Below are positions 51,064-61,186 of a DNA stretch of 64,000 bases, in pieces. The notes below the pieces were generated by a model. That model was not told the origin of the DNA and searched no databases. It was given only the letters and a program-made list of their open reading frames with translations. The first letter of the stretch is position 1; each line of letters opens with the position of its first letter. Both the position numbers and the translations under genes were made by a program. The DNA is from Sporomusa malonica (GTDB lineage Bacteria; Bacillota; Negativicutes; Sporomusales; Sporomusaceae), in NCBI RefSeq assembly GCF_900176355.1, contig NZ_FWXI01000001.1:124001-188000 (forward strand). The letters are read 5' to 3'.

Positions 51064-51081
51064 AAAATGATTAATTATTAT

Positions 51082-51148
51082 ACCTCGTCTCCACCATCTA
51101 AATCCGGAATACCTAGGAACCAGCGAATTTCGCGGGTTCTTTTTGTTT
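51082..51148 (+). repeat. Dispersed repeat R2, copy D
   Basis: CGTCTCCACCATCTAAATCCGGAAT is split by one altered base from the R2 form. The terminator GAACCAGCGAA/TTCGCGGGTTC and TTTTTG follow. The front inverted half is degraded. It serves as terminator for the dehydrogenase gene and ends exactly where the group II intron begins. Confidence 0.65.
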
Positions 51149-51149
51149 G

Positions 51150-51660
51150 GTGCGCCCAGCATGGGCGTTTACTTGTTGGTGAAAGTCCAATACGGGGGTT
51201 GATAGTGCCAACCGTTAGCCTAAGACAAGGGTGTCCACCGTGAGGTGGAATCTGAAGGAAGTCGGCGGCAAAGCTCTGGTCTGAGGAATACGAACTACAT
51301 ATGAGGCATGCGTAATGCTGGGTGAACTGGCCGAACAAAGTAAAGCCCAAAACTATCCGAAGCATACGGTGTAAATGTAGCAGATGTATGGAGTGAAAGT
51401 AAACGCTCTTACCTGGGGAGGTCTGACAGGAAAGCCGAGAACATGAATTTGTGAACCGGCAACCCACACAGTGATGTGTGACTGAACTGTCAGAAGTCAG
51501 CAGAGGCCATAGTACTGCAGTGGATGCATACACTGCAGGAAGGGCTGAACAATAGGAGGTTTCTAAATTTGAAAGGTACGAAGACATGCAAAGAAAGCAG
51601 ACAACTTCAAAACGAAGACTACCTGCAGGAGATAAGGAAGGAATCCGGATGCACTGCAGG
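51150..51660 (+). mobile_element. 3'-truncated class IIC group II intron
   Basis: The 5' end GTGCGCCCAGCATGGGCG and the inner pieces GAAGGAAGTCGGCGGCAAA, GGTCTGAGGAATACGAAC, CTTACCTGGGGAGGTCTG and AGAAGTCAGCAGAGGCCATA follow the class C intron domain I-IV pattern. A GGAGG site and TTG 51569 begin the intron protein (TKTCKESRQLQNEDYLQEI), which is lost after about 30 codons where transposase DNA begins. Domain V is absent, so it cannot splice. Insertion right after a terminator hairpin is the known preference of this class. Confidence 0.85.
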
Positions 51661-52550
51661 AGTGCAGACCCTGTCCTCTCCATGCCCCAAGAACAGATCC
51701 AGCGAGGATTCCCATCTTCTAAGAGCAATGACCTCGCTGCAGCTACATAACCTCTCACTATTTCTTTCTGTGGATCGTCTATTTTGCTCTAGTTTTCGTT
51801 CCAAGTCTCGAATACCACGCAGCTTTTTTTGATTTCTGTTTTGAGTTTCCACCAAATCGACTACTGGCTTTGCAATATCCTTTAAATAGTGATACTGGCA
51901 ATATTGATAGGGTACATCTGGTAATAGCGACTCCATCGCCATACGAATTGACTGCTGTCCATCACTGATGATACCGATGATAGGAAAACCCAATTTCACA
52001 ATTGGCGAATTTAGTGCCTTTAGTTCCTCTGTAGCACTACTTTTTACGTTTTCCGCTGCAAAAATGGTTCCACTAAACACCTCACGCACCACATATAGAG
52101 TTTCATTACCTTTTTCAGGTTGAACTCCATCCATCGATAGCATGATTCCGCCGTTGGTTTTCACGACTTCCTGTAATACTTCTTTTGTATAATCCGTTAT
52201 ACTAGACCGAAGCAGCGCCAAGTATCTTTCATAGAGTCGTTGGCGTTGCGTTCTGATGTTGCAATCCCTCGTCGCTGGAGTTCTAATGTTATTTCCGCAC
52301 ATGTCATGTGCTGCTTGAATCTAAGTTCCCCAACTAGTGCTAGAACATCGAATCCATAGGACGTATGCTTCATGCATAACGTTTCTGCCTCAGCAGATTT
52401 ATATTTTGCATCTTTATGCGTACAATTCAGGTTTGGGTAACCAGAGGCAGCACTCCAGACTTGAATAACCCCGGATAACGTAGAGATATTTTTCTTCCAG
52501 CAGTATGGCTCCGGGTCAACTTAGTACTGCAATGAGGACAATGCTGCAGT
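51640..52550 (-). pseudogene. Frameshifted transposase remnant
   Basis: Read leftwards: a zinc-finger-like start (CPHCSTKLTRSHTA) ends in a shift near 52505. A second piece runs in another frame (WKKNISTLSGVIQVWSAASG; ELRFKQHMTCAEITLELQRR) and shifts near 52240. A third piece holds the DDE-type core (MLSMDGVQPEKGNETLYVVR; IGIISDGQQSIRMAM; YQYCQYHYLKDIAKP). The end is lost at the intron junction. I do not assign an IS family. It is not functional. Confidence 0.75.
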
Positions 52551-52947: not shown

Positions 52948-53009
52948 AGGGTAGATATTTAAAGAAAAATAATATATTATGTTAGTGACATAATTGTCGG
53001 AGGTGTGTG

Positions 53010-54920
53010 ATGAGTCAGATAACTTTTGTATCACCATACCGGGATTTATCTTTATTGGCCCAGTCTGTTGCCGATGAGATGGGTATAAATATTGAAGTGT
53101 TCGAAGGGATTATGGGGGAAAACGGCTGGGCAGGCTGGAAAGGGGATTCAAGCCAGGCAAAAAGCAAACTTGGTGCTTCGTTAGGTGATGTGCTTGTCAG
53201 TCGTGGGGGCACGGCGTTTCATTTAGCGCGTAATCTCAATCTCCCGGTTGTTACAGTCAACACAGGGCCATTTGATATTATTGAATGCTGTAAACAGGCA
53301 AAACAGTTTAGCTTGAATATAGTCATTACTACTTTTTCACCATTGGTAGGACTGGGACTGATAGAAGAAATTTTGGGAGTGACAATTACAGAAATTGTTA
53401 TAACAAGTCTGCCGGAATTAGAAATGCAGATCGCTAAACTTGCAGAAGAAGGAAATTATTGCGTAGTTGGTGGCGGGGCATCTATTCCTTATGCAAAAAA
53501 ATATGGTGTACCTAGTGTTTTTTTACATACCAGCCGTGATACCATTCGGGAAGCATTGCTGCGTGCTGAAGAACTTGCCAAGCTTCATTACGAAGAGAAA
53601 CGCCGAACCAGCAGGCTTAAGGCTATTGTCGACTGTGCCTACGAAGGAATTATAGCTGTTGATGAGAATGGGAAAATTGACTTGTTCAATCATGCGGCGG
53701 AAAAAATTCTTGGTATCAAGGTTGAAGAGGTAATCGGGCGTAAGGTTGTAGAGGTTATTCCGAACACTTGCATGCATGAAGTGCTTAGCGATGGGCAGCT
53801 GCATATCAATGAATTCCAAGACGTTGGCGATGTGCGGATTGTTACCAACAGAGTCCCGATTAATGACGGACAACGAATTGTGGGGGCGGTAGCCACTTTC
53901 CAGGAAGCATCACGTATTGTTCAGATAGAACATCAAATGCGCAAAGCAATAACAGAACAAAAATTTCGGGCAAAGCTTACTTTTGCAAATATCTTAGGCC
54001 AGTCCCCTATAATCAAGCAAAAAAAAGACTTGGCAAGAAAATTTGCCGCTTCTGATTTGACGATATTTATTAATGGTCCTTCCGGTACAGGAAAAGAACT
54101 TTTCGCACAAGGAATTCATCATGCCAGCCAGAGAGCGTCCGGCCCATTCGTGGCTGTTAACTGTGGTGCTTTACCCCAGTCGCTTTTAGAAAGTGAACTG
54201 TTCGGATATGCGGAAGGGGCATTTACGGGTGCCAAGCGTAAGGGAAAAGCCGGGCTGTTTGAAATGGCTCATGGCGGCACTATTTTTCTGGACGAGATTG
54301 ATGCCATGCCCATTGATATGCAGGGACGCCTTTTGCGGGTGCTGCAGGAACGGGAAGTTTTGCGTATTGGGGCGGAAGGAATTATTCCGGTGGATATCAG
54401 AGTGGTTGCCGCTTCGAATAAGACTCCGCAAAAATTGCTGGAAACCGGTTTGATCAGGGAGGATCTATTTTACCGGTTAAATGTTTTATATCTTGAGATA
54501 CCACCGTTAAATATGCGGAAGGAAGATATTCCGTTATTATGCAGGGAATTTCTCCTAGCAGATAAGAGGGAATTAGCGGCACCTCTTATTGCGGATATGA
54601 TGCCTTATTTAATGAAATATTCCTGGCCGGGAAATGTGCGGGAACTTTTGAATTTTACACAGCGCCTCTCGTTCTTTTTGGATGATTGTAAGGCTGGCGA
54701 TAGTGGGGTTGATCTGTTAAAAATCATAGCGCCTGATCTTATTCAAGACCGTAACAAAACAGCAACTGACAGCAGTCTGCGTGCACAAATTGCAGCACAG
54801 GAAGAGGTTATGATTTCCCGGGTTCTGGAGAAAAGTACCACCATAGCTGAGGCTGCGGCGCAATTAGGGATTCCCAAAACCACCTTATGGCGAAAAATTC
54901 AAAAGCTAAAAGAGCGTTAG
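53010..54920 (+). CDS. Sigma-54-dependent activator with PrpR N-terminal sensor
   Basis: 636 residues: a PrpR_N-type ligand domain (about 1-190; VSRGGTAFHLARNLNLPVV), PAS (about 200-300), AAA+ ATPase (about 325-560) with Walker A GPSGTGKE, the sigma-54 contact loop GAFTGA, Walker B GGTIFLDEID and an arginine-rich end, then a Fis-type helix-turn-helix (TIAEAAAQLGIPKTTLWRKI). It hydrolyses ATP to open sigma-54 promoters. PrpR_N domains bind small organic acids or their CoA-pathway products. ATG 53010 follows CGGAGG. Three -24/-12 promoters, each with the same palindrome upstream, follow in the next 6 kb and are its likely targets. Confidence 0.92.
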   Translation: MSQITFVSPYRDLSLLAQSVADEMGINIEVFEGIMGENGWAGWKGDSSQAKSKLGASLGDVLVSRGGTAFHLARNLNLPVVTVNTGPFDIIECCKQAKQFSLNIVITTFSPLVGLGLIEEILGVTITEIVITSLPELEMQIAKLAEEGNYCVVGGGASIPYAKKYGVPSVFLHTSRDTIREALLRAEELAKLHYEEKRRTSRLKAIVDCAYEGIIAVDENGKIDLFNHAAEKILGIKVEEVIGRKVVEVIPNTCMHEVLSDGQLHINEFQDVGDVRIVTNRVPINDGQRIVGAVATFQEASRIVQIEHQMRKAITEQKFRAKLTFANILGQSPIIKQKKDLARKFAASDLTIFINGPSGTGKELFAQGIHHASQRASGPFVAVNCGALPQSLLESELFGYAEGAFTGAKRKGKAGLFEMAHGGTIFLDEIDAMPIDMQGRLLRVLQEREVLRIGAEGIIPVDIRVVAASNKTPQKLLETGLIREDLFYRLNVLYLEIPPLNMRKEDIPLLCREFLLADKRELAAPLIADMMPYLMKYSWPGNVRELLNFTQRLSFFLDDCKAGDSGVDLLKIIAPDLIQDRNKTATDSSLRAQIAAQEEVMISRVLEKSTTIAEAAAQLGIPKTTLWRKIQKLKER

Positions 54921-54953
54921 TGAAACAAGGGTGGCTGATGTTTAATTCATGAG

Positions 54954-54998
54954 AAATCCGCAAACGGAACAAATTTTCCGTTTGCGGATTTTTTTTAT
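54954..54998 (+). terminator. Intrinsic terminator of the activator gene
   Basis: A perfect 16-bp stem, AAATCCGCAAACGGAA with TTCCGTTTGCGGATTT, followed by seven T. The inner stem is also the proposed enhancer site. Confidence 0.88.
54965..54980. promoter_or_regulatory. Proposed upstream activator site 1
   Basis: CGGAA-CAAATT-TTCCG. The same CGGAA-N6-TTCCG form recurs at 57279 and 58833, always 85-87 bases before a sigma-54 promoter. Confidence 0.7.
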
Positions 54999-55063
54999 CG
55001 ATATGCTGGGGATGTCATGGCAGAAAACATCAGTAGATATCAGTAATTTTAGAAAAAATAGAA

Positions 55064-55080
55064 TTGGCATGAAATTTGCA
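55064..55080 (+). promoter_or_regulatory. Sigma-54 promoter 1
   Basis: TTGGCATGAAATTTGCA: the -24 GG (55066-55067) and -12 GC (55078-55079) are 10 bases apart, as required. The start is expected near 55091, about 60 bases before the MFS gene. Confidence 0.85.
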
Positions 55081-55151
55081 TATATATTAAATATCTGCAG
55101 ATGAACACTAATTTGCGGGGGACAATAATAATATTGAACGGAGGAGAAAAA

Positions 55152-56498
55152 ATGTCTCAAACTACAGTAAACACTCAGTCGAATGTTGCTTCAGGAAAGG
55201 TGACGAAATTTCGTTGGGTTGTGTTGGCACTTATTTTTGTAATTTATACTATCGCCACCGCAGACCGCGCTAACATCGGCATTGCGATGCCCTTTATCCG
55301 GAAAGAGTTTCCGATGAGTAACACCGAAGCCGGAATGATGATGAGTCTGTTTTTTGCAGGGTATGTTTTGTCGATGATTCCCGGCGGATTTTTGGTTCGC
55401 AAGCTTGGTGTAAGTAAGATATTTTCAATTTTCATGTTTTTTACATCTCTATTTACAGGGCTGATAGGAATGGCTGGCTCAATTTTTCAGATGAAACTCT
55501 TTCGTTTAGGTGTTGGTCTCTCCGAAGGACCACTGGCTGTTGGTATGCCTACCACGATTAATAATTGGTTTCCAGCCAAAGAGAAAGGTTTTGCCACCGG
55601 TATTTTTATTGCTGCGTCCAAGTTTGGTCCCCTTGTCGTGCCGCCTCTGTGTGGGCTTATTATTCAAATGTGGGGTTGGCGCGAGATATTCTTCTTTTTC
55701 GCTATTCCCGGCGTATTGCTAGGTATTGCATGGTATTTTATAGTAGCGGATAAGCCGTCCCAAAGCCGTTTTTGTTCACCTGCCGAAGCTGAGTATATCG
55801 AAACGGACGCAGTAGTTATTGAGGGAAAGAAAAAGGAAGCCAAACCATATAAACTTGCCTGGCTGGATAAAATAGTCAGAGCAAAAAAGATTGAGCGTCT
55901 CGATACTCCTAAGAAGATATTCACTTCTTGGAATATGATTGGCAGCTCACTGGGTTATTTCTTTATGATTGCTATTACCACTACGATGATGTCATGGATT
56001 CCGACCTATTTGGTTACAGTGAAAAAACTTGCCATTATGAAAATGGCCTTTGCCGCTGCAGCGCCCTTTGCAGGTACTGTGATTGGCAATATGGTGGGGG
56101 GCTGGCTGTCGGATAATGTTTTCGGCAAGCGGCGTAAACCGTTGATGCTGTTTACTGCTCTTACAACATCTTTCATGATGTATTCGCTGATCACTTCACC
56201 TGCAGATCCATGGTTACTGGGTGGACTTCTATTTGTTACCGGTTTTTTCCTTTCTTTAGGCTTCTCGGCTTTTGTGGTTTACCCCATGGGACTGGTAACA
56301 AAAGAGCAATTCTCAATAGCTACTGCTATCACCAATACCGGCGGACAGCTTGGCGGATTCTGTACCCCGATAGCCATAGGCTGGCTTTTGGATAAGTATA
56401 ATTGGGATATAGTGTTTACCGCTTTGGCTGCCGGATGTCTCATCTGTTTCTTGCTTGTTTCGACAATAGAGGAACCGGTGGATGATCCTTTGGTGTAA
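55152..56498 (+). CDS. MFS transporter, anion:cation symporter type
   Basis: 448 residues, twelve predicted membrane segments. DRANIGIAMPFIRKEF at the first loop and GGFLVRKLG are typical of the ACS group that takes up organic anions (hexuronates, tartrate, phthalate). ATG 55152 follows GGAGGAG. It is the first gene after sigma-54 promoter 1 and is cotranscribed with the membrane protein at 56528. The substrate is probably the acid degraded by the enzymes downstream (inference). Confidence 0.88.
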   Translation: MSQTTVNTQSNVASGKVTKFRWVVLALIFVIYTIATADRANIGIAMPFIRKEFPMSNTEAGMMMSLFFAGYVLSMIPGGFLVRKLGVSKIFSIFMFFTSLFTGLIGMAGSIFQMKLFRLGVGLSEGPLAVGMPTTINNWFPAKEKGFATGIFIAASKFGPLVVPPLCGLIIQMWGWREIFFFFAIPGVLLGIAWYFIVADKPSQSRFCSPAEAEYIETDAVVIEGKKKEAKPYKLAWLDKIVRAKKIERLDTPKKIFTSWNMIGSSLGYFFMIAITTTMMSWIPTYLVTVKKLAIMKMAFAAAAPFAGTVIGNMVGGWLSDNVFGKRRKPLMLFTALTTSFMMYSLITSPADPWLLGGLLFVTGFFLSLGFSAFVVYPMGLVTKEQFSIATAITNTGGQLGGFCTPIAIGWLLDKYNWDIVFTALAAGCLICFLLVSTIEEPVDDPLV

Positions 56499-56527
56499 GC
56501 GGTAGCCGATAAGCAGGAGGAATTATA

Positions 56528-57202
56528 TTGAACCGAGGCGATTTATTATGGCTGACTGCCCTTTGTGCGGTATCGTCGATATTGCTGGTACCGGCTAGCC
56601 ATCAAATATTTGTAGAGGTTACCAAAACTCACCCTTATTTCATGGGTTTTATCAAATTTGCTATTTTAGCCACTATGGGCGAATTGTTGGCTATCAGAAT
56701 CAGCGGAGGAAGATGGGAAAATCCACCTGGCGTGATATACCGCTCTATTGTATGGGGCGTCATTGGTATGCTTATCGTTTTGATGTTTGAAATGTTTTCA
56801 GGCGGTGTAGCAAGTGCGGTATCCAAGGGACTTTTGTGGGCTGGTACCGGGGAAGCGCATAAAGTTTGGATGGCGTTCTGGATTGCTGCCATCATGAATC
56901 TGGTGTTCGCACCTACTTTTATGACTGCTCACCGGATAACTGATACCTATATTGACTTGATTTGTGGCGAGGGTATACCTTTTAGCGACGTAAAGTTGTC
57001 TGCAGTACTTGCCAAAATTGACTGGCAAGGTTTGATTTCCTTCGTTGTTATGAAAACTATACCGCTTTTCTGGATACCGGCGCACACGATCGTCTTTTTA
57101 CTGCCTCCTGAATACAGAATTTTAACGGCAGCGTATTTATCCATTGCATTAGGAGCTATTCTTGCTTATGGTAAAAGGGAAAAAAATCAAAGTCCGCACT
57201 AA
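56528..57202 (+). CDS. Conserved membrane protein of unknown function
   Basis: 224 residues and about five hydrophobic helices with conserved-looking HPYFMGFIKFAILATMGE and FWIAAIMNLVFAPTFMTAHR. I do not recognise the family with certainty; it is loosely reminiscent of Mpv17-like proteins. The TTG start at 56528 is 7 bases after AGGAGG, 30 bases after the MFS gene, so same operon. A transport-related helper role is a guess from position. Confidence 0.65.
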   Translation: MNRGDLLWLTALCAVSSILLVPASHQIFVEVTKTHPYFMGFIKFAILATMGELLAIRISGGRWENPPGVIYRSIVWGVIGMLIVLMFEMFSGGVASAVSKGLLWAGTGEAHKVWMAFWIAAIMNLVFAPTFMTAHRITDTYIDLICGEGIPFSDVKLSAVLAKIDWQGLISFVVMKTIPLFWIPAHTIVFLLPPEYRILTAAYLSIALGAILAYGKREKNQSPH

Positions 57203-57266
57203 CATTGGTTAATACTGGAATGATGCGATGCGGCTTTTTAAGCAAAGTTTAATTTAATGCTAATTT

Positions 57267-57309
57267 AAAGTCCACAATCGGAATGATAATTCCGGTTGTG
57301 GACTTTTTT
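57267..57309 (+). terminator. Intrinsic terminator after the membrane protein gene
   Basis: AAAGTCCACAATCGGAAT pairs with ATTCCGGTTGTGGACTTT (one wobble), ending in TTTTTT. It contains proposed activator site 2. Confidence 0.85.
57279..57294. promoter_or_regulatory. Proposed upstream activator site 2
   Basis: CGGAA-TGATAA-TTCCG, 86 bases before the -24 element of promoter 2. Confidence 0.7.
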
Positions 57310-57378: not shown

Positions 57379-57395
57379 ATGGCATGAAACTTGCG
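57379..57395 (+). promoter_or_regulatory. Sigma-54 promoter 2
   Basis: ATGGCATGAAACTTGCG, GG (57381-57382) and GC (57393-57394) 10 bases apart. A 5' region of about 110 bases precedes the carrier gene. Confidence 0.82.
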
Positions 57396-57514: not shown

Positions 57515-58762
57515 ATGAACTTTGCTTTACTATCGGTTATTGCACTCATCTTGGCAATTGTAATTGGGGTAAAGAAAAAAATTAACATCGGAATAATTGC
57601 CATGTTTTTTGCGTTTTCTTTAGGACACTTTGTTTTTGGGTTAAAAGACAAAGATATGATTCTGAAAGGCTGGCCGCTAGGGATTTTCTTCATAATGATG
57701 TCGGCAATGTTCATGTTTTCTTTTGCCACAGTAAATGGAGCTACCCGACTGCTGGCGGAAAAACTGGCCTATGCAATCAGAAATTATGCCAAACTTCTTC
57801 CGTGGGCGTTTATGTTGGCTACCGATTTGCTGACAGGTATCGGGGCTGACCCGTCGGTTATTATATTTATGCTGCCAATTGCCTTGATAGCAGGTGAAAA
57901 AAGCGGCGTTAACCCGTTGATGCTGTGTATTATGATACTCGGTGGCGCGCTGGCCGGCGGTGCTTCACCGGTGAGTGTTATCGGTATTGTTACAGCCGGC
58001 CTGACTGCTAAAGCAGGGGTAGAGCATTATTTGCCAATATGGTTTGCCACGATAACAACCATATTATCGTTATCGTTCATGGCGTACTTTGGCCTTGGCG
58101 GATTAAAAATCAAAAAAGGTGAAGATGTCGAGTATCAAAAGCCTGGTGATTTTAATGCCAAGCAAATAAAAACACTGTGTGTTATCGCAGGTGCGCTTTC
58201 TTTGATACTGCTCTTTAAGGTGGATATCGGCGTCGCTGCATTTATTGGTTCAGGGGTATTGTTGATGTTAGGCGTGGCGGATGAAAAAGAAGCGGTGAAA
58301 TCGGTTAACTGGGGTGTATTATTGCTGGTTGGCGGGACTGGAATTTTAGTGGAGGTAATGACGGCAGTCGGCGGTATAAAAATGATGGCCAAATTCTTGT
58401 CGTCAATTATGACGGAAAGCACCGCGGCTCCGATCATGGCTTTGATTGCCGGTCTTATGACGTATGTTTCCAGTGCTACCGGAGTGGTAATGCCTACTCT
58501 CTTTCCTACGTTAGGCGGCATAGTACAAGAATTACATGGAACTGTGAGTCCGATACAATTAATGCAGGGTATACAAGCTGCGGCGATTGGTGCAGTACCA
58601 TATAGTCCGCTTTCGGCACTGGGGGCAATGGCGATGGCATCTTTGCCGGCAAGTGTGGATAAAGAGAAGTTGTTTACTCAATTGATTATCACGGCTGCTT
58701 TAGCGTTGATATGGACAATGTTCTTGACTTATATCGGGGTGTTTAATATTTTTATTCGATAG
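57515..58762 (+). CDS. MatC-like dicarboxylate carrier
   Basis: 415 residues and about eleven membrane segments in two similar halves, each with a re-entrant-type motif (GIGADPSVIIFMLPIALIAG; YVSSATGVVMPTLFPTL). The first half resembles the MatC N-terminal family of malonate/dicarboxylate carriers within the ion-transporter superfamily. It is transcribed alone from sigma-54 promoter 2 after an AAGGAG site. Uptake of a di- or hydroxydicarboxylic acid is the best guess. Confidence 0.78.
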   Translation: MNFALLSVIALILAIVIGVKKKINIGIIAMFFAFSLGHFVFGLKDKDMILKGWPLGIFFIMMSAMFMFSFATVNGATRLLAEKLAYAIRNYAKLLPWAFMLATDLLTGIGADPSVIIFMLPIALIAGEKSGVNPLMLCIMILGGALAGGASPVSVIGIVTAGLTAKAGVEHYLPIWFATITTILSLSFMAYFGLGGLKIKKGEDVEYQKPGDFNAKQIKTLCVIAGALSLILLFKVDIGVAAFIGSGVLLMLGVADEKEAVKSVNWGVLLLVGGTGILVEVMTAVGGIKMMAKFLSSIMTESTAAPIMALIAGLMTYVSSATGVVMPTLFPTLGGIVQELHGTVSPIQLMQGIQAAAIGAVPYSPLSALGAMAMASLPASVDKEKLFTQLIITAALALIWTMFLTYIGVFNIFIR

Positions 58763-58832
58763 GAGTACGTGCTTTTTATCAGCTCTCGCGGGATGAATAG
58801 AAAAAAGCTAATGTGTTCAAGTATTCCGTAAA

Positions 58833-58848
58833 CGGAATGAAATTTCCG
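58833..58848. promoter_or_regulatory. Proposed upstream activator site 3
   Basis: CGGAA-TGAAAT-TTCCG, 87 bases before the -24 element of promoter 3. An extra TTCCG half (58824-58828) lies just before it. This copy is not inside a terminator. Confidence 0.7.
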
Positions 58849-58933
58849 GTCATGGAATTTTATTCATTAATGCAAATATCAGTAAAGTATGAAAAACAAA
58901 GAAGAAATAGTGGTTTAGCTGTTAGAAAAAAAG

Positions 58934-58950
58934 TTGGCACGAAAATTGCG
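58934..58950 (+). promoter_or_regulatory. Sigma-54 promoter 3
   Basis: TTGGCACGAAAATTGCG is close to the classical consensus: GG (58936-58937) and GC (58948-58949). The start is expected near 58961, before the CoA transferase gene. Confidence 0.88.
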
Positions 58951-58999: not shown

Positions 59000-60196
59000 A
59001 TGACAATGGCAAAGCAAGCTTTAGCGGGAATCAAAGTATTAGATATGACACAATTTTTAGCAGGGCCTTATTGCGGATTGGTACTTGCCGATATGGGTGC
59101 TGAGGTTATTAAAATCGAGAATCCGACAGGCGACTTTGTTAGAAAGGCCCGCCCACAGATTAAAGATACCAGCATTTACTATGAAAATATGAACAGAGGC
59201 AAAAAAAGCGTAACTATTAACTTAAAAACCAAAGAAGGCAAAGATATATTTGCCAAGCTGATTGCTAAAGCAGATATTTTGATTGAAAACAACCGTCCCG
59301 GGGTTATGGAAAGACTGGGATTCTCATATGAACAAACCAAAGCGATGAATCCTGGCCTTATCTATTGTTCTATTTCAGGCTTTGGGCAAACCGGCCCCTA
59401 TAGTCAGCGCCCTGGTTACGATCTGATCGGCCAGGCGATGGCCGGCGCCATGAGCCTGACCGGCATGGAGGGACAGATTCCGCTGAAGTCTGGCATTCCT
59501 TTGGCTGATGTCATGGGGGGGATGAACGGCGCCATCGGCGTATTGGCAGCGCTCCAGTACCGCAATATGACCGGTAAAGGTCAGCATATCGATGTTGCAT
59601 TAGTTGATAGTATTGTTTCCAGTTTGCTTACGAATACTTTCCAATATCAAATTACTGGAGAAATCCCAGGCCCCAGCGGTAATCGGTACTTCAATGCGTA
59701 CCCATATGATTCCTTTAGTGCTAAAGACGGCGAATATGTCGTCGCCTGCGGCACCGATCCACATTTCTATACCATGGCCGATGCTATGGGCATGCCGGAA
59801 TTGAAGGAAGATCCGCGTTTTAAATACCTTGATGACCGCAAAACTACAGGCGCCGATGCTCTCAAGAAAATTATCGACAAATGGAGCAGTGATAAGACCG
59901 TCGAACAATGTGTCGATATTTTAATGGCTGTTGAAATTCCCGTAGCGCCTATCCTTAACGTCAAGCAAGTGGTGGAAGATAAACATATCCGGGAAGCGAG
60001 AGAGATGTTTGTAGATGTTGAGCATCCGGTAGCCGGCAAGTTCTACATCACCGGTAATCCGGTAAAGATGTCGGAAACTCCGACCACTCCTACTAAATGC
60101 GCTTCCATGCTTGGTGCTGACAACGAAGAAGTCTTCGCTACAATCGGTTTGGACAAGAAAACCGTACAAGAATATAAAGAAAAGAAAATTATTTAA
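59000..60196 (+). CDS. Family III (CaiB/BaiF) CoA transferase
   Basis: 398 residues. MTQFLAGPYCGLVLADMGAEV and ENNRPGVMERLGF are family III hallmarks, and Asp141 in PGYDLIGQAM is the expected acyl-anhydride-forming aspartate. It moves CoA from an acyl-CoA donor to a free organic acid. It is the first gene of the sigma-54 promoter 3 operon and is followed by an HMG-CoA-lyase-type enzyme, so the acid is probably activated here and then cleaved. Confidence 0.9.
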   Translation: MTMAKQALAGIKVLDMTQFLAGPYCGLVLADMGAEVIKIENPTGDFVRKARPQIKDTSIYYENMNRGKKSVTINLKTKEGKDIFAKLIAKADILIENNRPGVMERLGFSYEQTKAMNPGLIYCSISGFGQTGPYSQRPGYDLIGQAMAGAMSLTGMEGQIPLKSGIPLADVMGGMNGAIGVLAALQYRNMTGKGQHIDVALVDSIVSSLLTNTFQYQITGEIPGPSGNRYFNAYPYDSFSAKDGEYVVACGTDPHFYTMADAMGMPELKEDPRFKYLDDRKTTGADALKKIIDKWSSDKTVEQCVDILMAVEIPVAPILNVKQVVEDKHIREAREMFVDVEHPVAGKFYITGNPVKMSETPTTPTKCASMLGADNEEVFATIGLDKKTVQEYKEKKII

Positions 60197-60277: not shown

Positions 60278-61186
60278 ATGCATCTGCCCAAACAGGTAGA
60301 AATAACTGAAGTTGGCCCACGCGACGGGTTTCAGAATATCAAAGAATGGATTCCCACAGAAACAAAATTAGAAATTATTGACCATCTGGCGGCTTGCGGC
60401 TTTAAAAAAATGGAGGTAACTGCCTTCGTGCATCCGAAAGCAGTGCCGCAAATGGCGGATGCCAAGGAAATCATCACTGCTGTCAAGGCTAAACATAAAG
60501 ATGTGGTCTGGATGGCGCTGACGCCAAACCTAAAAGGCGTGACCAATGCTATTGAAGCGGGCGCCGATCAGGTAGGCTATATTATTTCAGCCAGTGATCG
60601 GCATAATTTTGCCAATACCAAACAAACCATTGACCAGTCGCTGGAAGGTTTGGGTGAGGTTTGTAAAATAAAAGGCGATACCAAAATCCAATTGTCGATT
60701 CCTACCGTGTTCAATTGTCCTTGGGGCGGGAGAGTTCCGGCGGAAAACGTAATAAAGATTATTGAATATGGGTTGTCGGTAGGCGTTGATGATATTGGCC
60801 TGGCAGATACCGTGGGGTCGGCTCATCCCCTGCAGGTAAAAGAACTGCTGGATATTGTAAAAGCTAAATTTCCTGAATTGAATTTGGTGCTGCATCTTCA
60901 TGATACCAACGGCATGGCTATGGCCAGTATCTTTGCGGCACTGCAGGCAGGTACCACCAGATTTGAAACGGCCGTCGGCGGCCTGGGCGGTTGCCCCTTT
61001 GCGCCGGGCGCAGCCGGCAATGTGGCTACGGAAGACCTTGTAAACATGCTGGAAGGCATGGGCATAAGCACCGGCATTGACTTTGACAAGCTGATGAAGG
61101 CGGCTTATAAGGTGCAGGAGTTATTGCCCGTACCTATTAGCAGCCGTATGTCCAGTGCGATAGCCTGTAAAACCCATATGGAGTAA
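60278..61186 (+). CDS. HMG-CoA-lyase-type enzyme
   Basis: 302-residue TIM-barrel. VEITEVGPRDGFQN carries the metal Asp and catalytic Arg, HLHDTNGMA the metal histidines, and GLGGCPFAPGAAGN the loop Cys239 typical of 3-hydroxy-3-methylglutaryl-CoA lyase. Relatives cleave citramalyl-CoA or other 3-hydroxyacyl-CoAs to acetyl-CoA plus a keto product. With the CoA transferase before it and a 2-oxoacid oxidoreductase after it, cleavage yielding a 2-oxoacid such as pyruvate would fit. HMG-CoA itself is the alternative. Confidence 0.85.
   Translation: MHLPKQVEITEVGPRDGFQNIKEWIPTETKLEIIDHLAACGFKKMEVTAFVHPKAVPQMADAKEIITAVKAKHKDVVWMALTPNLKGVTNAIEAGADQVGYIISASDRHNFANTKQTIDQSLEGLGEVCKIKGDTKIQLSIPTVFNCPWGGRVPAENVIKIIEYGLSVGVDDIGLADTVGSAHPLQVKELLDIVKAKFPELNLVLHLHDTNGMAMASIFAALQAGTTRFETAVGGLGGCPFAPGAAGNVATEDLVNMLEGMGISTGIDFDKLMKAAYKVQELLPVPISSRMSSAIACKTHME

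Follow-up and report, generated by a model that had tools for sequence, protein, structure and literature searches.

Two of the three operators that we assign to a sigma54 activator in the window, the whole 64-kb stretch of DNA analysed here, are probably enhancer-terminator hybrids (sites 1 and 2), in which one array would be bound as DNA by the activator and would fold as RNA into an intrinsic terminator; we put the probability of this reading at roughly 0.8. The preliminary description had proposed that a single inverted repeat could work as an activator site in DNA and as a terminator in RNA, and the proposal is well supported at the level of sequence by the concentric overlap of operator and hairpin, by conservation and covariation, by a strand-specific bias towards G-U mismatches, by the spacing to the promoter and by recurrence at other activator genes.

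The activator gene, hereafter regulator A, is followed by three likely transcription units, comprising an MFS transporter with a 224-aa protein, a MatC-type transporter, and a CoA-transferase with an HMG-CoA-lyase-like gene. A sigma54 element stands before each unit (at 55065, 57380 and 58935), with a copy of the palindrome 92 to 94 bp ahead of each element. The genes are:

53007..54920, forward strand: sigma54 activator gene (regulator A), domain order PrpR_N, PAS, Sigma54_activat, Fis-type HTH; probable start ATG at 53010
55101..56498, forward strand: MFS transporter gene (PF07690); likely start at 55152
56528..57202, forward strand: open reading frame for a 224-aa protein of unknown family
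57515..58762, forward strand: MatC/CitMHS-type transporter gene (PF07158, PF03600)
59000..60196, forward strand: Family III CoA-transferase gene (PF02515)
60278..61186, forward strand: HMG-CoA-lyase-like gene (PF00682; NF004283 above cut-off)

All four domains of regulator A score above their Pfam cut-offs (PF06506, PF00989, PF00158 and PF02954), and the scores of PF00158 (218.3 bits) and PF02954 (30.1 bits) identify the protein as a sigma54 activator (bEBP). It falls below the cut-off of the NCBIfam PrpR equivalog (TIGR02329, 399.4 against 499.2 bits) and is, as judged from its domain matches, PrpR-like only, having the PrpR_N domain with too low an equivalog score. The 224-aa protein has no Pfam or NCBIfam match at an E-value of 0.001. 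From their families, the genes between 55101 and 61186 (two transporters, a CoA-transferase and an HMG-CoA-lyase-like gene), placed under one activator, suggest that a C5-type dicarboxylic acid is taken up and broken down. Elsewhere in the window, the broken reading frames at 51078-52302 are presumably transposase remnants, and we take the adjoining sequence at about 51146-51300 to resemble the 5' end of a group II intron.

The motif CGGAA-N6-TTCCG occurs without mismatch at 54965-54980, 57279-57294 and 58833-58848, and nowhere else in the window. These positions are the cores of three longer operators, listed here with the promoter elements:

54957..54988, no strand assigned: operator 1, TCCGCAAACGGA and TCCGTTTGCGGA, 20 bp apart; core 54965-54980; centre 92 bp before the -24 element
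57271..57302, no strand assigned: operator 2; core 57279-57294; centre 93 bp before the -24 element
58825..58856, no strand assigned: operator 3; core 58833-58848; its imperfect hairpin falls short of a strong terminator; centre 94 bp before the -24 element
55065..55080, forward strand: sigma54 element 1, TGGCATGAAATTTGCA
57380..57395, forward strand: sigma54 element 2, TGGCATGAAACTTGCG
58935..58950, forward strand: sigma54 element 3, TGGCACGAAAATTGCG

Each operator is a tandem pair of TCC[AG]N4[CT]GGA units whose starts are exactly 20 bp apart, giving four half-sites, and the three operators account for six of the eight such units in the window. Two readings of the array fit the sequence equally, a single central dyad (CGGAA-N6-TTCCG) flanked by half-sites and a tandem of two dyads. 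Searched with up to one mismatch across the 5.19-Mb genome, the tandem-pair pattern matches at operators 1-3 only, perfectly in every case; a backwards control pattern also matches three places at this tolerance, so that only the perfect tandem-pair matches are informative. The core motif by itself was rejected as a definition of the operator, being found at nine genomic positions, of which six are outside the window; the tandem pair is the more specific.

Among ten operators from four species, the centre lies 92, 93, 94, 93, 82, 94, 81, 81, 83 and 92 bp before the -24 element. These distances fall into two groups, 81-83 and 92-94 bp, separated by about one helical turn (Rayleigh p of approximately 6e-4 at 10.5 bp, for sites of which eight trained the search matrix and some are orthologous to one another). 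Dyads regularly spaced ahead of a -24/-12 promoter, seen at these ten sites, are the arrangement that marks a sigma54 UAS.

Operators 1 and 2 are centred on two hairpins, each with a T-run directly after it:

54953..54992, forward strand: terminator hairpin 1, 17-bp stem, starting 32 nt past the activator stop codon; T8 run at 54989-54996
57267..57306, forward strand: terminator hairpin 2, 18-bp stem; T-run to 57309

Stretches of 56 and 59 nt containing sites 1 and 2 fold at -27.5 and -29.6 kcal/mol (z of -7.7 and -9.6), and none of 200 shuffles is as stable in either case. Both sites thus have the stable stem and T-run after a stop codon that define an intrinsic terminator, which site 3 does not, folding at only -13.6 kcal/mol with an internal loop (z of -2.3; six of 200 shuffles equally good). 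The preliminary description of site 3 as lacking a terminator is accordingly fair, although TTTATT comes after it. Its placing of sites 1 and 2 within the upper stems of terminators is borne out as to the concentric overlap, and understates the extent of the operator, which occupies 32 nt of either 40-nt hairpin and so reaches beyond the upper stem.

Orthologs of regulator A were sought by a scan of genome contigs and by searches at the level of the order (28 genomes) and of the class (380 genomes). Three close orthologs were found, at 76-78% identity and from three other families (L001, from a record titled Pelosinus fermentans UBA6563, L002 and L003), and in each the activator stop codon is directly followed by an operator-built hairpin ending in a T-rich tail, and then by a sigma54 element; the weakest tail is TTTCTTT, in L003. 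That strong hairpins with T-rich tails follow the activator stop in the window and all three close orthologs argues that the terminator exists independently of the operator. The preliminary description had held that relatives keeping the enhancer outside terminators would reveal a coincidence; for regulator A the enhancer lies inside in the window and in three of three close orthologs, while a core-like dyad outside the terminator does occur at one locus of a second activator, considered below.

L001 carries two further operators besides that behind its activator gene. One is inside an imperfect terminator-like hairpin (-24.9 kcal/mol, T5). The other, which has no good hairpin and a degenerate left outer half, keeps motif and spacing, and the gene after it starts like the CoA-transferase of the window; it is the likely counterpart of site 3, the flanking genes having been matched by frame length and first residues. 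Since site 3 and this likely counterpart retain motif and spacing where no good hairpin is formed, the operator would also be independent of the terminator. Two weaker extra operators (L134:17783 and L136:16378) have no T-run toward the promoter. Beyond the close orthologs, a matrix scan of the available DNA found the regulator A motif at none of 12 loci of homologs with 51-56% identity. The best score there was 7.8, whereas the eight training sites score at least 33.6 and the two extra operators 22.7 and 23.6. The operator of regulator A is therefore confined to close orthologs. The recognition helix was compared in the 11 distant homologs with a readable end and departs there from the KTTLWRK shared by the window and its close orthologs; the homologs at 51-56% identity were left out of the structure counts.

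Across the six terminator sites of regulator A in four genomes, 93.2% of cells are paired and 10 of 20 pairs show changes on both sides. Covariation is 0.513, compared with 0.254 in shuffles, none of 500 of which is as high, and with at most 0.165 when the pairing partners are slid. It is the pairs outside the operator and in the spacers that vary on both sides, and most half-site bases are kept. With flanks fixed at eight bases, 38 of 48 positions pair with the flank of their own site and 138 of 240 with swapped flanks; at the two regulator A sites without a terminator the corresponding values are 10/16 and 9/16.

A second activator of the same genome (activator B, contig C53), which is PrpR-like by Pfam with PrpR_N, sigma54 and Fis-type HTH domains, repeats the arrangement around a different sequence. 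Ten loci were collected and eight used, L277 and L278 being dropped before the structure counts. A core of GTTTC-N4/5-GAAAC is kept in the eight, with a C-to-T change in two and GTTT/AAAC invariant, and the form TGT-N10-12-ACA is present in six of the ten. In the stem, 107 of 108 cells are paired (99.1%) with both-sided changes at 9 of 14 pairs, and flanks pair at 62 of 63 positions within a species against 211 of 441 when swapped. The pattern that the preliminary description had expected of a dual site, inner bases kept and outer stem covarying, is hence found for regulator A and emerges more clearly for B. Operator-promoter distances range from 58.5 to 116 bp in seven B loci and lack the tight helical phasing of regulator A. 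Of the two loci set aside, L278 has another core, TGTTCC/GGAACA (TGT-N11-ACA), inside its hairpin, and L277, a distant relative (54%; contig C179 of G018), has a core-like dyad, GTTTTGCGTGAAAC, outside the terminator hairpin after its activator gene. L277 is a possible case of enhancer and terminator lying apart and, on this sequence, speaks against a strict enhancer-inside-terminator rule.

The genome contains 45 matches to PF00158, and 29 of these activator genes are followed within 400 bp by a same-strand sigma54 element. A terminator lies between gene and element in 18 of the 29, and in 10 of them it is 45-200 bp from the element; activator genes without a downstream element have a terminator in 11 of 16 cases. 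Terminators are thus no commoner where a sigma54 element follows, and a hairpin is significant for what it contains and where it lies rather than for being present. Five of the 10 hybrid candidates, the window's included, were compared with their orthologs (activators A-E), and C, D and E also have a conserved dyad core in the terminator behind the activator gene. For C, a response regulator, the core is present in four of six loci (L285 and L286 were dropped from the structure counts), with flank pairing of 24/32 within species and 55/96 swapped. For D, of the PAS type, the dyad is found in eight of nine loci, seven of them with a T-run (L292 and L295 were dropped), and flanks pair at 44/44 and 206/264 positions respectively. 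For E the core is seen in 5 of 15 loci, the 10 without it having been dropped. Outer-stem covariation is weaker for C and D. Upstream of 79 sigma54 elements, which do not include that of D itself, no second copy of the C, D or E core was found, and an operator role for these three cores is one that we only infer.

Several observations lie to the side of this comparison. At L292 (contig C6 of G026) the four-half-site dyad of activator D is kept and the T-run is missing, possibly an operator without a terminator. The terminator after another related activator (L238, G000:C41) has a hairpin with TTCCGTAAAC...GTTTACGGAA, which closely resembles one half of the operator in the window and lies 193 bp before a sigma54 element. 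Two simpler markers were discarded. A hairpin is found in 30 of 79 stretches of up to 400 bp upstream of sigma54 elements on the same strand and in 17 of 79 on the other, and its presence near an element is not special in itself. A self-dyad score of the hairpin arms proved dependent on the threshold, separating 3/14 from 0/67 at a score of at least 5 and giving 3/14 and 10/67 at a score of at least 4; the controls were hairpins of the window and of 15 loci of relatives, and two of the 10 control hits at the lower threshold are operator sites.

RNA tolerates G-U pairs and not A-C, and a DNA dyad has no reason to favour G-T over A-C on one strand. In the stems of the five activators the mismatches are G-U in 25 cases, A-C in five and other in seven (binomial p of 3e-4), the ratios of G-U to A-C by activator being 10:1, 3:1, 0:0, 9:3 and 3:0, in a count that treats related sequences as independent and that takes the B-E hairpins from a G-U-tolerant finder. 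The excess of G-U over A-C on the transcribed strand points to selection at the level of RNA. Covariation and this bias together are those expected if RNA pairing is kept by selection, in sequences that are few and interrelated (eight and six).

It could be argued that any palindromic activator site beside a T-run will resemble a terminator, the overlap having no RNA function. A tandem palindrome is by its very design an inverted repeat, site 3 and its counterpart in L001 show such repeats without a good terminator, and terminators are found just as often behind activator genes with no sigma54 element after them. Such a coincidence is nevertheless improbable, given that stem bases beyond the operator change in pairs across species, that G-U mismatches outnumber A-C as described, and that strong hairpins stand past the stop codon in the window and every close ortholog. 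A shade less probable again is the converse, that the whole repeat is a terminator, its conserved core a feature of the RNA, and that the activator binds elsewhere. The strength of the hairpins and their position after stop codons would suit this view, as would the dyad outside the hairpin at L277 and the failure to find terminator-free copies of the C, D and E cores upstream of the 79 elements; it is opposed by the recurrence of the regulator A motif, at the same promoter spacing, where site 3 and L001 have no good terminator, and by the TGT-N10-12-ACA form in six of the ten B loci, which is a published form of activator site (PMC6615313).

The symmetry might, lastly, be purely a matter of DNA, as a long dyad for an activator oligomer or a cruciform, with termination incidental. 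A DNA dyad would likewise be preserved by paired changes; however, the outermost bases share little sequence between species (mean left-flank identity of 0.32 for A and 0.34 for B), and G-U is favoured over A-C on the transcribed strand. We regard this explanation as the least probable of all, with very little chance of being correct.

The reading that we prefer, of one array used as both enhancer and terminator, would operate as follows. As double-stranded DNA, the symmetric four-half-site array at all three operators would be bound by the activator encoded at 53007-54920, which when bound would switch on a promoter lying about 92 bp further downstream. Once transcribed, the array at sites 1 and 2 would fold into the intrinsic terminator of the preceding gene, which at site 1 is the activator's own; transcription would thus end at hairpin 1 for the activator gene and at hairpin 2 for the gene of the 224-aa protein. 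A tandem pair of palindromes is already nearly a hairpin, and complementary spacers, a few outer pairs and a T-run could complete the terminator and leave the operator undisturbed. The likely benefit would be a compact way of shielding a tightly controlled sigma54 operon from transcripts that run on past the activator gene, in bacteria that seemingly have no Rho.

Owing to the geometry of the elongation complex, RNA polymerase has to traverse the entire operator before arriving at the T-run. The preliminary description had supposed that a bound activator might affect read-through, and on this geometry a roadblock, or displacement of the activator, is likelier than stimulated read-through; we would predict that a bound activator blocks rather than promotes read-through and that transcription displaces the activator. 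It is a more doubtful proposition that the two form a self-linked switch, in which every transcript of the activator gene crosses the activator's enhancer before ending, so that transcription clears this enhancer, and in which the activator, once bound, blocks or alters termination at the end of its gene, as a general design in the Rho-less bacteria of the order. The Rho RNA-binding domain (PF07497) was matched in none of the 28 genomes of the order, the window's own included and some of them incomplete, and in 9 of 14 control genomes; the absence of Rho is also noted in a study of Sporomusa sphaeroides (PMC12456013).

Annotation and experiment usually treat enhancers and terminators as distinct elements. 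In the present case a single sequence is seemingly selected at two levels, and within one genome the arrangement is found again behind other activator genes that have other operator sequences. Should this be confirmed, it would provide a simple lead to activator sites, as the conserved heart of the terminator behind an activator gene, would suggest how Rho-less bacteria could insulate tightly controlled operons, and would offer a compact part for genetic design.

In Bacillus subtilis, the sigma54 enhancer of RocR reportedly lies just past the end of rocG, which is like the window in having an enhancer immediately beyond the end of a gene. Among the matches listed in a search of open-licence literature, no title or abstract beginning describes a sigma54 enhancer inside a terminator, and the word 'terminator' is absent from the main text of the papers on Clostridiales sigma54 regulation (PMC6615313) and on the Desulfovibrio sigma54 regulome (PMC4641369). 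The activator sites published for 15 groups in the former are TGT/ACA inverted half-sites 10-12 bp apart, the form that activator B shows in six of its 10 loci (PMC6615313). DNA uptake sequences of Neisseria and Pasteurellaceae are like the window in that a short DNA signal in complementary pairs forms an intrinsic terminator stem, and unlike it in serving uptake, in generally numbering at least 1,000 per genome and in not being the site of a regulator (PMC1852404). The anfA-anfH region of Rhodobacter capsulatus runs from an activator gene through a Rho-independent terminator and a tandem pair of dyad activator sites to a sigma54 promoter, and so matches the window in the order of its elements (PMC7294313). 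Its authors place all elements needed for activation 3' of the terminator, and a shortened fragment keeps considerable promoter activity (PMC7294313). The nearest layouts seen are the uptake sequences that double as terminator stems and anfA-anfH, where, unlike in the window, the terminator is separate from the two activator sites (PMC1852404, PMC7294313).
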